A stretch of DNA of 64,000 nucleotides from Bacteroidota bacterium (lineage in GTDB: Bacteria; Bacteroidota; Bacteroidia; UKL13-3), in contig CANHVU010000006.1 in the NCBI GenBank assembly GCA_947464275.1, forward strand, positions 1 through 64,000, given 5' to 3'. Under the pieces are notes generated by a model. That model did not search any database, had not been told where the DNA came from, and saw nothing but the letters and a program-made list of their open reading frames with translations. A program made the position numbers and the translations under genes. This document shows, piece by piece, positions 4,115-23,107 of the stretch (position 1 is its first letter; the number at the start of each line of letters is the position of its first letter).

Positions 4115-7100
4115 ATGAGCGAAAGCACAGGAACAAAACGATTAAATGCGGTAGTAAAAGAGCTGAATGTAGGAATGCAAACCCTTGTGGACCATTTAGC
4201 CAAAAAAGGTCATAGCATTGAGGCTAAGCCAACTACAAAGCTTTCAGAAGAGCAATATAAGGTGTTGCTTAGTGATTTTCAAAGCGAAAAGAAAAACAAG
4301 GAAGAATCTAAACAACTTAGCCATAACAAAGTTAAGCCTAAAGATATTACCATTGAACAACTGAAACCAAAAGCTAATGTTAGCGATGATGATTACGAGG
4401 ACGAAATTGTTGTTGTAAAATCAGGCTTATCAAATAGATATGAAAAACCTATTGAAGTTAAAACTTCAAAGACAGTTGAACAGCCTTCAGAAAAAATAGC
4501 TGAACCAGCTGTTGAAATAATCCCAGAACCAATTGTTATAGCTCCAATCAAGGAACCAGTTTCTGAAGTCATTGAAAAAGTATCTCCTAAAGTTGAAGAG
4601 AAAATTATAATTGAATCGAAACCAATTGAAGAACCCAAAGTTGAACCAATTGTTGAGAAATCATCAGAAGTTACTAGTGAAGATAATGACTCTGAAGCAC
4701 CTAAATTAACCATTTTAGGTAAAATTGATTTAGATTCATTAAATACAAAAACCCGACCTGATAAACGTCTGAAAGAGGCAAAAAAATCTAAAGAGGTTGA
4801 GAAAAAACCTACTCCAAAGGAAACAAAAGTTCAAGTTCAAAAGGAAGAAACTCCTAAAATTGAGGTTGTTGAAAAACCAATAATTCCTGCTAAAGAGGTA
4901 GAAAAAGAAATAGAAGCTAAGATTGAAACTGTTGCTCCTGTAACTGAAGCTCCTATTATTGAAGCCACTGAGGTTAAACCTACAGAGGTAATGGAAACAA
5001 ATTACGAAAAACTTTCCGGCCTTAAAGTTATGGGTAAAATTGTTCTTCCAGTTGACCCACCAAAAAGTAGCAATAAACCGGTAGCGTCAAGTGATGCTAA
5101 TAATAAGAAAAAACGTAAACGCAATAATTATATAGGTGGAAGTGATACTGCTAATGATAAGTTAAATAAATTTAACAAACCTGCAGACGGTACTACTCGT
5201 CCTCCATACCAAGGAAATAATACAGGAGGAAATAGACCTGGTTATCAGGGAAATAATCCTAATAATGGAACAGGAACGCCTAGAACGGGTTACCAAGGAA
5301 ACAACCCAAATAATAATCGCCCAGGTTATCAAGGAAATAATCCAAACGGTGGTACACGTCCGCCATTTAATAAAGGTGGAAATAATACTACTGGTGGAAA
5401 TCGTTTTGGAAATAATACACCATACAAACCAGGTGAGAAGAAGGAAATTACGGATAAAGAAGTTCAAGATAAATTAAAAGCAACTTTAGCTCGTTTAAAT
5501 CCTGGAAGTAAAAATCCAAATATTGGAGCTGTTCGTTCAAAAATTCGTAAGCAAAAGAGAGATGATGCAAGAAGTGAGCGTGAAGAGGCTGCAATTGAGG
5601 CTGAATTAGCTAACAAAGTATTGAAAGTTACCGAATTTGTTACAGCTAACGAATTAGCTAAAATGATGGAAGTAACTGTTACACAAATTATCTCAGCTTG
5701 TATGAGCTTAGGTATGATGGTTTCAATTAACCAACGTTTAGATGCTGAAACTATTAGTATTGTAGCTGAAGAATTTGGATTTGAAGTAGATTTTGTTAGT
5801 GCTGAAGTTCAAGAAGCTGTAGAAGAAGATATTGATGATCCTGCAGATTTATTACCTCGTGCACCAATTGTAACGGTAATGGGTCACGTAGATCATGGTA
5901 AAACTTCATTATTAGATTATATACGTAAAGCAAATGTAATTGCAGGCGAAGCGGGTGGTATAACACAACACGTTGGAGCTTATGAGGTTACATTAGATAG
6001 TGGCAAAAAAATTGCATTTTTAGATACTCCTGGTCACGAAGCTTTTACGGCTATGCGTGCTCGTGGTGCTAAAATTACCGATATTGTAATTATTGTAATT
6101 GCTGCCGATGATAGCGTAATGCCTCAAACTAAAGAAGCTATCAGTCATGCGCAAGCTGCTGGTGTTCCAATAGTTTTTGCATTTAATAAAATAGATAAAG
6201 ATGGTGCTAATACTGAAAGAATCAGAGAGCAATTAGCCCAAATGAATATATTGGTAGAAGAATGGGGTGGTAAATACCAAACCCAAGAAATTTCTGCCAA
6301 AAAAGGTTTAAACATTGACTTATTACTTGATAAAGTTTTACTTGAAGCTGAAATTTTAGACCTTAAAGCAAATCCAAACCGCAGAGCAGTAGGCTCAATT
6401 ATTGAAGCCTCACTTGATAAAGGACGTGGAATTGTGGCAACTTTAATGGTTCAAAATGGAACTTTAAGAGTTGGTGATCCAATTATTGCTGGAACAAATT
6501 CGGGTAAAGTAAAAGCTATGTTTGATGAACGTGGTAAAAAAATGCTTTTTGCTGGCCCTTCAACTCCAGCAGTGGTGTTAGGTTTTGATGGCGCGCCTCA
6601 AGCAGGTGATAAATTAATTATTACCAAAACAGAACAAGAAGCGAGAGAAATTTCTAATAAACGTAAGCAATTACAACGCGAACAAGGCTTACGTACCAAT
6701 AAACATATTACTTTAGATGAAATTGGACGTAGGTTAGCAATTGGTAACTTTAAAGAGTTAAAAATTATTGTTAAAGGTGACGTGGATGGTTCGGTAGAAG
6801 CATTAGCAGATTCATTGATTAAACTATCAACCGAAGAAGTTCAAGTAAGTGTAATTTACAAAGCAGTGGGTCAAATATCTGAAAGCGATGTAATGTTAGC
6901 CTCTGCATCTGATGCAATCATCATTGGTTTCCAAGTACGTCCTTCACCACAAGCTCGTAAATTGGCCGAAAATGAATCAATCGACATTCGTATGTATTCA
7001 ATTATTTACAATGCGATTGGCGAAATTAAATCGGCTATTGAAGGTATGCACACGCCTAAAATGGAAGAGAAAATTACTGGTAATATTGAAATACGTGAAG

Positions 7101-7369
7101 TATTTAAAATTACCAAAGTTGGAGCCGTTGCAGGTTGTATGGTTACCGATGGTAAAGTATTCCGTAACTCTAAAATACGCTTAATACGCGATGGTGTTGT
7201 GGTTCACACAGGTGAACTTTCATCATTGAAACGCTTTAAAGACGATGTTAAAGAAGTAGCTTATGGATTTGACTGTGGATTAACAATCGATAAATTTAAT
7301 GATATGAAGGTAGGCGATTTTGTAGAAGCTTACGAAGAAGTTGAAATTAAACGCCCTACAAGCAAATAA
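4115..7369 (+). CDS. infB: Translation initiation factor IF-2
   Basis: This 1084-residue protein is the GTPase that brings initiator fMet-tRNA to the 30S subunit and promotes subunit joining. It has a short IF2_N-like start ([15 protein letters not shown]), then a long acidic Glu/Pro/Val/Lys-rich linker (about 60-330). A Gly/Asn-rich stretch with repeated GYQGNNPN units follows (about 365-445), then a second IF2_N domain near 510-560. The G domain has GHVDHGKT at 590-597, DTPGHE at 637-642 and NKID at 691-694. Domains II, III and the C-terminal tRNA-binding domain follow. infB often sits in a rimP-nusA-infB operon; here neither gene precedes it, and the upstream neighbour is an aminotransferase 260 bp away. 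Confidence 0.97.
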
Positions 7370-7393
7370 ATATTTAATAATAAGAAAGAAGAC

Positions 7394-19886: not shown

Positions 19887-21659
19887 ATGCACAGAACACA
19901 TACCTGCGGAGAACTTAGAATTACTGATATTAACAAAACTGTAACCTTAAGTGGTTGGTTACAAAAAAGCCGCGATTTAGGCGGAATGACATTTATTGAT
20001 TTACGCGATAGATATGGTATTACGCAATTGGCTTTTAACATGGAAACCAATGCAGCTATTTGCGAAAAAGCACGTAAATGTGGCCGTGAGTTTGTATTAA
20101 AAGTTACTGGTAAAGTAATTGAACGCAGCAGCAAAAATGCCAATATTCCTACTGGCGAAATTGAAATAGAAGTGACTGATTTTGAAGTGTTAAACGAATC
20201 ACAAACACCTCCATTTACCATTGAAGATAATACAGATGGTGGTGATGATTTGCGCATGAAATATCGTTATTTAGATATTAGAAGAAAACCCGTTCGCGAT
20301 AATTTATTGTTGCGCCATAAAATGAGTCAACAAACTCGTGTTTACTTAGATGCACAACAATTTACCGAAGTTGAAACTCCCGTTTTAATTAAATCAACCC
20401 CAGAAGGCGCTAGAGATTTTGTGGTGCCAAGCCGCATGAACCAAGGACAATTTTACGCTTTGCCACAATCGCCTCAAACTTTTAAACAATTGCTAATGGT
20501 AGCTGGCATGGACAGATACTACCAAATAGTAAAATGTTTTAGAGACGAAGATTTGCGTGCTGATCGTCAACCTGAGTTTACGCAAATTGATTGCGAAATG
20601 AGCTTTGTGGAGCAAGAAGATATTTTAAACATGTTTGAAGGTTTGGTAAAACATTTGTTTAAAAACGTAAAAGGAATTGATATAGATACTTTACCACGAA
20701 TGACTTTTGCAGATGCCGCAAAATATTATGGTTCTGATAAACCTGATACCAGGTTTGATATGAAATTTGTGGAATTGAAATCTGTAGAGACGTTGCATGC
20801 AACGTCTTTATTACCCGCAGGTTTCCCTGTTTTTGATAATGCAGAATTAGTAGTTGGAATTTGTGCCAAAGGTTGTGCAGAATATACCCGCAAACAGTTG
20901 GATGAATTAACTGAGTTTGTAAAACGTCCGCAAATTGGCGCAACAGGGTTGGTTTATGCCAGAGTTAATGCTGATGGTTCGGTAAAATCATCTGTTGATA
21001 AATTTTACGATGAAGCTACTTTAAAACATTGGGCAACTGCTATGAATGCAGCTCCTGGCGATTTGTTATTAATAATGGCTGGCGCAACAGATAAAACCCG
21101 CAAAGCATTATGCGAATTACGTTTGGAAATGGGAACCCGCATGGGTTTACGCAATCCTGATGTGTATTCATGTTTATGGGTAATTGATTTTCCATTGTTA
21201 GAATTTATTGAAGAAGAAGGTCGTTGGTTTGCCATGCACCATCCGTTTACTTCACCAAAACCAGAAGATGTGGAGCATTTAACTAATGGTGATTACGCCA
21301 AAGTTAGAGCCAATGCTTACGATATGGTTATTAATGGAGTAGAAGTGGGCGGAGGCTCTATTCGTATTTTCGATAAAACTTTGCAAGGCAAAATGTTTGA
21401 GGTATTAGGATTTACCAAAGAAGAAGCGCAAGCTCAATTTGGATTTTTAATGAATGCTTTTGAATATGGTGCACCTCCTCACGGAGGAATTGCCTTCGGT
21501 TTCGATAGGTTATGTTCACTTTTTGGTGGCGAAAATTCTATTAGAGATTTTATAGCTTTCCCTAAAAACAACTCAGGCCGCGATGTAATGATTGATGGTC
21601 CAAGTCCAATAGATCAAAAACAATTGAATGAGTTGGGAATTAGTGTAAATAGTTTATAA
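19887..21659 (+). CDS. aspS: Aspartyl-tRNA synthetase
   Basis: This 590-residue class-IIb synthetase charges tRNA-Asp. I use the ATG at 19887 ([19 protein letters not shown]), which fits the usual start; an in-frame TTG 21 bp earlier is less likely. An N-terminal OB-fold anticodon-binding domain is followed by motif 2 ([19 protein letters not shown]) and then the bacterial GAD insertion. Motif 3 is [10 protein letters not shown] near the end. Inside the GAD region, residues VETLHATS are encoded by a 20-bp perfect palindrome (20788-20807). Compared with the Bacteroides homologue as I remember it, the stretch between FVEL and GFPVFDNAE is about 7 residues longer. See the separate repeat entry. 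Confidence 0.96.
20788..20807. repeat. Perfect 20-bp palindrome inside aspS
   Basis: AGACGTTGCATGCAACGTCT reads the same on both strands. With its flanks (TAGAG before, TTTAT after) it resembles a dispersed palindromic repeat I remember from Bacteroidota and cyanobacteria with a GTAGAGACGTTGCATG half-site. Here it lies in frame in the aspS coding sequence, contributing ETLHATS. Confidence 0.75.
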
Positions 21660-21672
21660 ATAATTGAACATG

Positions 21673-21709
21673 AAAAAAGCCGAACAAATGCTATTTGTTC
21701 GGCTTTTTT
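21673..21709 (+). terminator. Rho-independent terminator after aspS
   Basis: A perfect 16-bp stem AAAAAAGCCGAACAAA / TTTGTTCGGCTTTTTT with a 5-nt loop lies 13 bp after the aspS stop, with a T run on the 3' side. Confidence 0.9.
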
Positions 21710-21828: not shown

Positions 21829-21865
21829 TTTGTCAAATACGGAATCCAATTCCGTATTTGACAAA
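21829..21865. repeat. Palindrome A flanking the DUF4143 ATPase gene (upstream copy)
   Basis: Arms TTTGTCAAATACGGAAT / ATTCCGTATTTGACAAA (17 bp) surround a 3-nt centre CCA. It ends 20 bp before the ATPase ATG. The GTCAAATACGGAAT arm is shared with the copy downstream of the gene. Confidence 0.85.
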
Positions 21866-21885
21866 TTTTATTATACATTTGTTTT

Positions 21886-23046
21886 ATGATTCAGAGGGTA
21901 GCTTCAACTAAAATAAAACAACTGGCCAAGAAATTTCCGGCTATTGGTTTGCTTGGTCCAAGACAATCGGGTAAAACAACTTTGGCAAAAGAATTATTCC
22001 CTAAAAAGCCATACATTAGTTTCGAAAATCAGGATAATGTAATATTAGCCATGAGCGACCCTCGGGCTTTTTTAGCAAAGTATAAAACAGGTGCCATTTT
22101 TGATGAAATACAGCGTGTACCCGAGTTACTTTCGTATATGCAAGGCATGATAGATTCACAACCCAATAAAGTTGGTTTATTTGTTATTACAGGTTCTCAA
22201 AATCTATTGTTATTAGAAAGTGTTTCTCAAACGTTAGCAGGTCGTATTGCTTTTATTCATTTATTACCATTTAGTATTGCAGAATTATCCACTAGTAAGT
22301 TTTCAACCCAAAGTTTAAATAAACTAATTTTGAATGGTGGCTATCCACGTTTATATGATAAAAAAATCAGCCCTCCTGATTTTTATCCCAACTATTTACT
22401 CACATACGTAGAACGAGATGTAAGGCAAATAAAGAATATTGCTAATTTGAGTTTGTTTCAACGTTTTTTGAAAATTTGCGCTACTCGTGTTGGGCAAGAA
22501 ATAAACTACACATCAATAGGCAACGACACTGGAGTTGACCAAAAAACTGTTATGAGTTGGTTTGGAATTTTAGAGGCCAGTTTTATCGCCTTTAGGTTGC
22601 AACCTTTTTATAATAATTTAGGAAAACGGATTACCCAAATGCCTAAACTTTATTTTTACGATACTGGCTTGTGCTGCTCATTGCTTGAAATTGATAACGA
22701 ATCGCATGTAAATACACATCCATTAAGAGGTTCATTGTTTGAAAATTTAATTATTCTAGAATTGTTAAAAAAACGATTGAACAATGGACAGCGAAGTAAT
22801 TTATTTTATTGGAGAGAACGTTCTGGAATTGAAATTGATATTTTAATGGAGCAAGCATCTCAAATTATTCCTGTTGAAATAAAAACTGCCACTACGTTTA
22901 ATAGTGATTTTTTGAAAGGAATTAATTATTGGAAAAAGTTAAATCCAACAATCAAAAATTCATATTTAGTTTACACTGGCAAGTCCTCAGCTATCGATAA
23001 TACTGATATTTTGAATTGGAAACAAGTTATAGAAATAAAAAATTAA
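21886..23046 (+). CDS. AAA_14/DUF4143 ATP-binding protein
   Basis: This 386-residue protein has an N-terminal AAA_14 P-loop ATPase with Walker A GPRQSGKT at 24-31. Walker B/DEIQ is at about 71-75 (IFDEIQRVPEL), followed by the sensor ITGSQN and LAGR. The C-terminal DUF4143 domain includes LLTYVERDVRQI, a winged-helix-like stretch near 205-225, LYFYDTGL, and a nuclease-like tail with ERSGIEIDIL and IPVEIKTA. The ExD...ExK spacing (EIDIL...VEIK) resembles PD-(D/E)xK enzymes. Function is unknown; the family is widespread and multi-copy in many genomes. The gene sits alone after a strong terminator, and is tightly bracketed by two near-identical palindromes 20-22 bp from start and stop. Confidence 0.88.
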   Translation: MIQRVASTKIKQLAKKFPAIGLLGPRQSGKTTLAKELFPKKPYISFENQDNVILAMSDPRAFLAKYKTGAIFDEIQRVPELLSYMQGMIDSQPNKVGLFVITGSQNLLLLESVSQTLAGRIAFIHLLPFSIAELSTSKFSTQSLNKLILNGGYPRLYDKKISPPDFYPNYLLTYVERDVRQIKNIANLSLFQRFLKICATRVGQEINYTSIGNDTGVDQKTVMSWFGILEASFIAFRLQPFYNNLGKRITQMPKLYFYDTGLCCSLLEIDNESHVNTHPLRGSLFENLIILELLKKRLNNGQRSNLFYWRERSGIEIDILMEQASQIIPVEIKTATTFNSDFLKGINYWKKLNPTIKNSYLVYTGKSSAIDNTDILNWKQVIEIKN

Positions 23047-23068
23047 GTTATTTTACCTACAAATAAAT

Positions 23069-23107
23069 TTCTGTCAAATACGGAATTGAATTCCGTATTT
23101 GACAGAA
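23069..23107. repeat. Palindrome B flanking the DUF4143 ATPase gene (downstream copy)
   Basis: Arms TTCTGTCAAATACGGAATT / AATTCCGTATTTGACAGAA (19 bp) surround a single G. It begins 22 bp after the ATPase stop. The 14-bp arm GTCAAATACGGAAT is identical to the upstream copy at 21829-21865. Confidence 0.85.

Follow-up and report, generated by a model that had tools for sequence, protein, structure and literature searches.

The window analysed here, a stretch of 64 kb from the genome of a Bacteroidota bacterium, contains a gene for an AAA_14/DUF4143 protein which is bracketed by two matching palindromes (Table 1). The elements are closely spaced, with 20 bp between the 5' palindrome and the ATG and 22 bp between the stop codon and the 3' palindrome, and the coordinates confirm the arrangement which had been reported in a preliminary description of this DNA. 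The assignment of the gene product was likewise borne out by Pfam (DUF4143, 5e-51; AAA_14, 3e-25). Both palindromes consist of the same arms around a Y-N-R centre; the four GTCAAATACGGAAT arms are the sole matches at up to two mismatches in the 64-kb window, and the palindrome pair is the only occurrence in the 3.4-Mb genome. The identity of the arms had been recognized before and stands, whereas the reported difference of the centres, CCA versus G, reflects the variation of three central bases which is seen throughout the clade.

Table 1. Coordinates of the features discussed. Positions refer to the window unless preceded by the designation of another locus (L).
Feature	Position	Strand	Remarks
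Palindromic element within the aspS coding sequence	20784-20814		AGAGACGTTGCATGCAACGTCTTT
Hairpin 3' of aspS	21673-21709		perfect 17-bp hairpin ending in a T-run
5' palindrome, 37 bp	21829-21865	.	TTTGTCAAATACGGAAT-CCA-ATTCCGTATTTGACAAA; predicted operator
Bacteroidota -7 box	21874-21881	+	TACATTTG (TAnnTTTG); separated from the ATG by 4 nt; leaderless mRNA predicted
AAA_14 + DUF4143 protein gene, 386 aa	21886-23046	+	PADLOC PDC-S01, candidate phage defence
Predicted STAND-like ATPase core, residues 1-185	21886-22440	+	Walker A G24-K30, Walker B D73-E74, invariant
Predicted winged-helix-like segment, residues 188-257	22447-22656	+	secondary structure of the model; alignment with 2qen/2fna reaches residue 268
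Predicted PD-(D/E)XK nuclease domain, residues 281-363	22726-22974	+	E286, E316, D318, E331 and K333 invariant
3' palindrome, 39 bp	23069-23107	.	TTCTGTCAAATACGGAATT-G-AATTCCGTATTTGACAGAA; core as in the 5' copy
Agrobacterium block	L166 2247-3754; L173 3001-4506; L174 3001-4502; L175		DUF4143 gene only
Moraxella bovis block	L165 2134-3758; L177 3001-4626		DUF4143 gene and end of a recombinase gene
Emticicia plasmid gene	L163 2495-3661	+	between araD and araA (both -)
DUF4143 genes at the same site in sister species	L184 3410-4583; L088 (G024) 6130-7392		distantly related; same left neighbour

The neighbours of the DUF4143 gene in the window, namely aspS, a TonB-domain (tonB-like) gene and carB, are housekeeping genes. 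The hairpin following aspS probably acts as a terminator and should thus restrict transcription from running on into the DUF4143 gene. The short palindromic element within the aspS coding sequence is present in dozens of near-identical copies across the genomes of the genus and is a dispersed REP/MITE-like repeat, unlike the palindromes of the DUF4143 gene. REP-like dispersal of the latter was considered and rejected, as dispersed copies were found neither in the genome nor in 40 relatives.

The association of the palindromes with the gene is exclusive. When 40 related genomes were searched for the 31-bp core at up to three mismatches, exactly two copies were present in each of five genomes, always around the orthologous gene, and the core was absent from every other genome of this set, with no solo palindromes; a variant containing GACAAAT was present in 4 of 58 genomes, at the gene only. 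The search of the genome and its relatives proposed in the preliminary description thus recovered the palindromes only as a pair around the DUF4143 gene, and neither palindromes spread widely without such genes nor orthologous loci always carrying the gene with unrelated flanks were encountered. Nearly all orthologues of the same family (80-98% identity) carry the same palindrome pair, and wherever the DNA upstream of a family orthologue was examined, the 5' palindrome is conserved. Across 25 palindromes, the core does not vary out to +-15 bp, apart from the centre and from changes made symmetrically on both sides, which occur at +-8 (A-T/T-A) and at +-14 (T-A in 10, A-T in 15). Beyond +-16 the bases vary, yet often remain symmetric. 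In the whole survey, the two copies at one locus match each other at values of 0.85-1.0 in 22 loci. The core CAAATACGGAATNNNATTCCGTATTTG was also considered as a phage target and this was rejected, as it is absent from IMG/VR, where the sequence of this one clade was scanned.

The protein itself is predicted to combine a STAND-like ATPase, a winged helix and a PD-(D/E)XK nuclease. This assignment is based on an AlphaFold2 model (71 homologues; pLDDT 92.6), which shows a Walker A/B core followed by the winged-helix-like segment and a C-terminal domain (residues 268-386) with the nuclease residues placed on the appropriate fold. The closest solved folds to the ATPase and winged helix are 2qen (Z 15.7) and 2fna (Z 14.8), with 244 residues aligned at an rmsd of 3.1, and the next matches are STAND proteins of plant and animal immunity (NLR/CED-4). 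When modelled on its own (pLDDT 93.4), the C-terminal domain resembles PD-(D/E)XK nucleases, with matches to Can2 (Z 10.7; 119 aligned residues, rmsd 3.5), Cdn1 (Z 9.7) and McrC (Z 8.7). The E-x-D...E-x-K spacing which had previously been thought to resemble a nuclease was recovered as E316-x-D318 and E331-x-K333, both invariant in 71 homologues, and the catalytic residues of both enzyme domains are invariant in this set. No repeat (sensor) domain is seen in the 386-aa model, Pfam identifies only AAA_14 and DUF4143 and thus no transposase domain, and the sequence has no solved homologue and no match in PHROGs or NCBIfam. It does match the PADLOC profile PDLC04790 (PDC-S01) at 4.7e-96 over residues 1-368, as do all 71 homologues. 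According to the parts of PMC12988326 that deal with this family, PDC-S01 is an ATPase fused to a PD-(D/E)XK domain, ranks as the fourth most common defence candidate across prokaryotes and is credited to Payne et al. 2024 (bioRxiv 10.1101/2024.01.29.577857, cited in PMC12988326), with validation pending for most of the PDCs.

The position of the 5' palindrome relative to the start of the gene indicates at which level it may act. The -7 box in the window is followed by TTTT and then by the ATG, and the 5' dyad ends 8 bp ahead of this box, thereby overlapping the gene's own promoter. In 39 of 103 DUF4143 genes, compared with 4 of 315 controls (p = 2e-22), a TAnnTTTG motif precedes the ATG by 3-6 nt, the distance being exactly 4 nt in nearly all of them. 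Since mapped transcription starts place the Bacteroidota -7 box at -12 to -5 (PMC9723704), the spacing of 4 nt predicts +1 at the A of the ATG and therefore a leaderless mRNA, with the 5' palindrome at about -57 to -21 and outside the transcript, which argues for a DNA operator and against an RNA hairpin. In Bacteroides thetaiotaomicron, leaders of less than 10 nt account for only some 3.7%, and in Flavobacterium psychrophilum 5.5% of the mRNAs are leaderless (PMC7366714, PMC9723704). Of the functions considered in the preliminary description, self-regulation is therefore supported at the level of DNA by the position of the dyad, while a role of hairpins in RNA stability is not supported. Both palindromes can indeed fold into hairpins of 17-18 bp, which might stabilize the mRNA or control translation from both ends of the transcript, but the predicted start excludes the 5' palindrome, the mismatches of the upstream palindromes exhibit no G-U bias (27 GT versus 17 AC, p = 0.17), and the 3' copy is missing in most of the family, so that we regard such a function as highly improbable. 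A known RNA was also rejected, as Rfam gave no match.

A survey of the family shows that an upstream dyad is a common feature of these genes. With a strong palindrome defined as a score of at least 10 within 100 nt upstream, and other genes of the same loci serving as controls, 71% of 104 distinct Bacteroidota DUF4143 genes possess one, compared with 8% of 285 control genes (Mann-Whitney p = 1.5e-32). Downstream palindromes are not a family-wide feature, the excess over controls (28% versus 22%) not being significant. Of 55 copies from plasmids and viruses, 20 possess either a dyad or a phased repeat, compared with 15 of 244 controls. The sequences of the dyads differ by protein clade, although their centres are often common, for example GGAATnnnATTCC or AGTTnAACT, and one type, CCTTGnAAATT...AATTTnCAAGG directly 5' of the ATG, is found repeatedly, in Bacteroidota, Rhizobium and Thiothrix as well as in viral contigs. 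As protein identity decreases, dyad similarity falls from 0.92 through 0.75, 0.60, 0.51 and 0.48 to 0.41, while the DNA just outside the dyads stays near background (0.36-0.47; shuffled dyads, 0.40). Each protein clade thus has its own dyad sequence, which accompanies the gene, whereas the DNA outside does not. The co-variation of dyad and protein (Mantel rho 0.52, p = 0.001; the tree agrees) is in part due to shared ancestry. Together with the exclusive association described above, it lends good support to the link between palindromes and gene that was implied when the palindromes were proposed as recognition sites. Dyad similarity tracks the identity of the ATPase domain most closely (rho 0.56, partial 0.37). 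The winged helix contributes little (partial 0.06) and is not singled out by this test of domain co-variation, so that it should not be taken for granted that this segment reads the dyad. Winged helices in STAND proteins often serve the nucleotide switch rather than DNA binding.

Where a palindrome is missing, the genes tend instead to contain direct repeats offset by 22-23 or 31-33 bp, i.e., two or three helical turns. These phased repeats were found in 25 of 40 cases versus 7 of 50 control repeats, and the p-value of 2e-6 is a guide only, because the offsets and score thresholds were picked after inspection of the data and some of the loci are near-identical. Direct repeats of 10-40 nt replace the palindrome upstream of the DUF4143 start in L209, L228, L192, L148, L242 and L166. 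It was further observed that DUF4143 genes may occur next to each other, with eight pairs within 5 kb among the matches listed compared with about one expected at random (e.g., G078:C41:24857/26232 and G171:C10:73512/74923).

These data also bear on the question of whether the dyad might be the binding site of a separate host regulator which controls the DUF4143 family. Its overlap with the promoter would suit such a regulator, but the genome contains no further occurrence of the site, each clade's own sequence follows its protein even across phyla, and the two DUF4143 genes of this genome carry dyads unrelated to each other. A host regulator of this kind therefore seems quite unlikely, although a factor of the host which is inherited together with the gene could read the sites.

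An operator alone does not account for the matching 3' copy, and its recurrence is the least explained feature of the unit. On the tree, 24 of 175 genes possess such a copy, and 10 parsimony changes are required, compared with 22.9 for shuffled data; the copy is thus clustered, yet was gained or lost several times, each copy matching its own 5' counterpart. Such copies recur in several clades, but most DUF4143 genes lack one.

Two palindromes at the ends of a gene may suggest a compact selfish mobile unit, whose ends would be recognized and cut by the encoded nuclease/ATPase, moving the gene together with its ends. In most pairs of orthologues, the similarity of the DNA indeed sets in and breaks off no more than about 10 bp from the outer edges of the palindromes. 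Between this genome (G000) and G003, whose proteins are 98% identical, it breaks at -1, the outer edge of the 5' palindrome, with the right flank aligning for a further 466 bp, and between G000 and G009 it breaks on both sides of the unit; however, alignments of unconserved intergenic DNA also end near the last functional element. The unit is located near aspS in eight of the nine family genomes inspected (G000, G003, G004, G009, G029, G019, G032 and G023), a linkage which mostly represents vertical inheritance, and lies elsewhere only in G024. Four genomes contain aspS without the unit (G001, G005, G006 and G008), but their flanks are rearranged, cut or too diverged to reveal a clean junction. 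At the locus occupied in G024, G033 is without the unit and G011 contains a distant DUF4143 gene in the corresponding position, but rearrangement of the right flank in G024 leaves no clean junction. It was also noted that two sister species contain distantly related DUF4143 genes at the same site and next to the same left neighbour (Table 1), with none in a third species.

Further observations in the family speak for mobility. In clade 2 (L101, L102, L104, L028 and L029), the gene occurs together with both palindromes in several contexts. A 1.5-kb block from Agrobacterium, whose sole gene is a DUF4143 gene, recurs at 96-99% identity in at least three unrelated contexts, and its ends bear a direct repeat resembling GTTCGATTCCsTTCAAG instead of a palindrome. 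The repeats at its junctions, GGTTCGATTCC, resemble tRNA T-arms, no tRNA genes were detected at these junctions by ARAGORN, and L176 contains a similar site without the block. Two plasmid types of Moraxella bovis share a block in which a DUF4143 gene is accompanied by the end of a recombinase gene; this recombinase gene has a full-length annotation in one plasmid type and appears as a remnant in the other. The Agrobacterium and Moraxella bovis blocks show that DUF4143 genes can be moved, and on an Emticicia plasmid such a gene lies between araD and araA as if inserted into the operon.

The earlier proposal of a compact mobile unit ending in the palindromes thus finds support as far as the ends of the shared unit and the movement of other DUF4143 units are concerned. 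Mobility of the unit in the window is not supported, given a single copy of this type in this and each orthologue genome, the linkage to aspS and the lack of solo palindromes and of a clean empty site. Since most DUF4143 genes are moreover devoid of a 3' copy, the protein is without a transposase domain and the Agrobacterium block has other short direct repeats in place of palindromic ends, we consider a mobile unit with palindromic ends to be improbable.

Several known systems share single features with this unit. The archaeal STAND-like ATPases PAB2304 (2qen) and SSO1545 (2fna) correspond to its ATPase and winged-helix fold at only 14-17% identity, and the C-terminal nuclease falls outside the aligned range. 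Can2/Card1, McrC and Hjc have a similar PD-(D/E)XK fold, Hjc being a weak Foldseek hit (E 0.04-0.07), but the window protein contains no CARF domain as in Can2/Card1 and no McrB partner as in McrC. RAYT/REP systems also consist of a gene flanked by palindromes, but involve a Y1 (HUH) transposase and dispersed palindromes, both of which are missing here. Self-regulated defence and toxin-antitoxin operons likewise contain a dyad overlapping their own promoter, whereas the window unit is a single gene without antitoxin or separate repressor, with a leaderless promoter and a matching copy after the stop codon. The gene matches the profile of PDC-S01, which is described in the respective parts of PMC12988326 as an ATPase fused to PD-(D/E)XK; this copy has housekeeping neighbours instead of a defence island, but defence loci were the route of discovery and are not required for each copy. 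The passages on PDC-S01 in that source contain no mention of cognate promoter dyads, and the literature searched yielded nothing relevant linking DUF4143 with palindromes or archaeal ATPases with inverted repeats.

As judged from the sequence data, the palindromes probably serve as a cognate operator for autoregulation of the gene, acting as recognition sites in double-stranded DNA which are most likely bound by its own product. With transcription starting at the A of the ATG, the dyad would stay outside the mRNA, and the STAND-like ATPase-nuclease or an oligomer of it may bind there and compete with RNA polymerase. Binding would hold a potentially dangerous nuclease at a low level until it is released by phage infection, by the ATP/ADP state or by titration with other DNA. 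The matching 3' copy may represent a second site, allowing the protein to bridge or bracket its own gene, and the helically phased direct repeats found at the same place in palindrome-less units would be expected for an oligomeric DNA-binding protein. A wider version of this operator model, in which the ATPase-nuclease recognizes its own dyad at both ends of the gene as a self-mark, so that the unit regulates, brackets and possibly mobilizes itself, is conceivable but rather doubtful. If true, it would describe a single-gene selfish defence element with coevolving specificity of protein and site, existing in thousands of versions.

The presence of a cognate site beside most Bacteroidota copies provides a defined candidate ligand for PDC-S01, which is very common and as yet unstudied. 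The dyads also point to the natural promoter and start of these genes, and the family offers many natural pairs of protein and site from which their specificity may be decoded.
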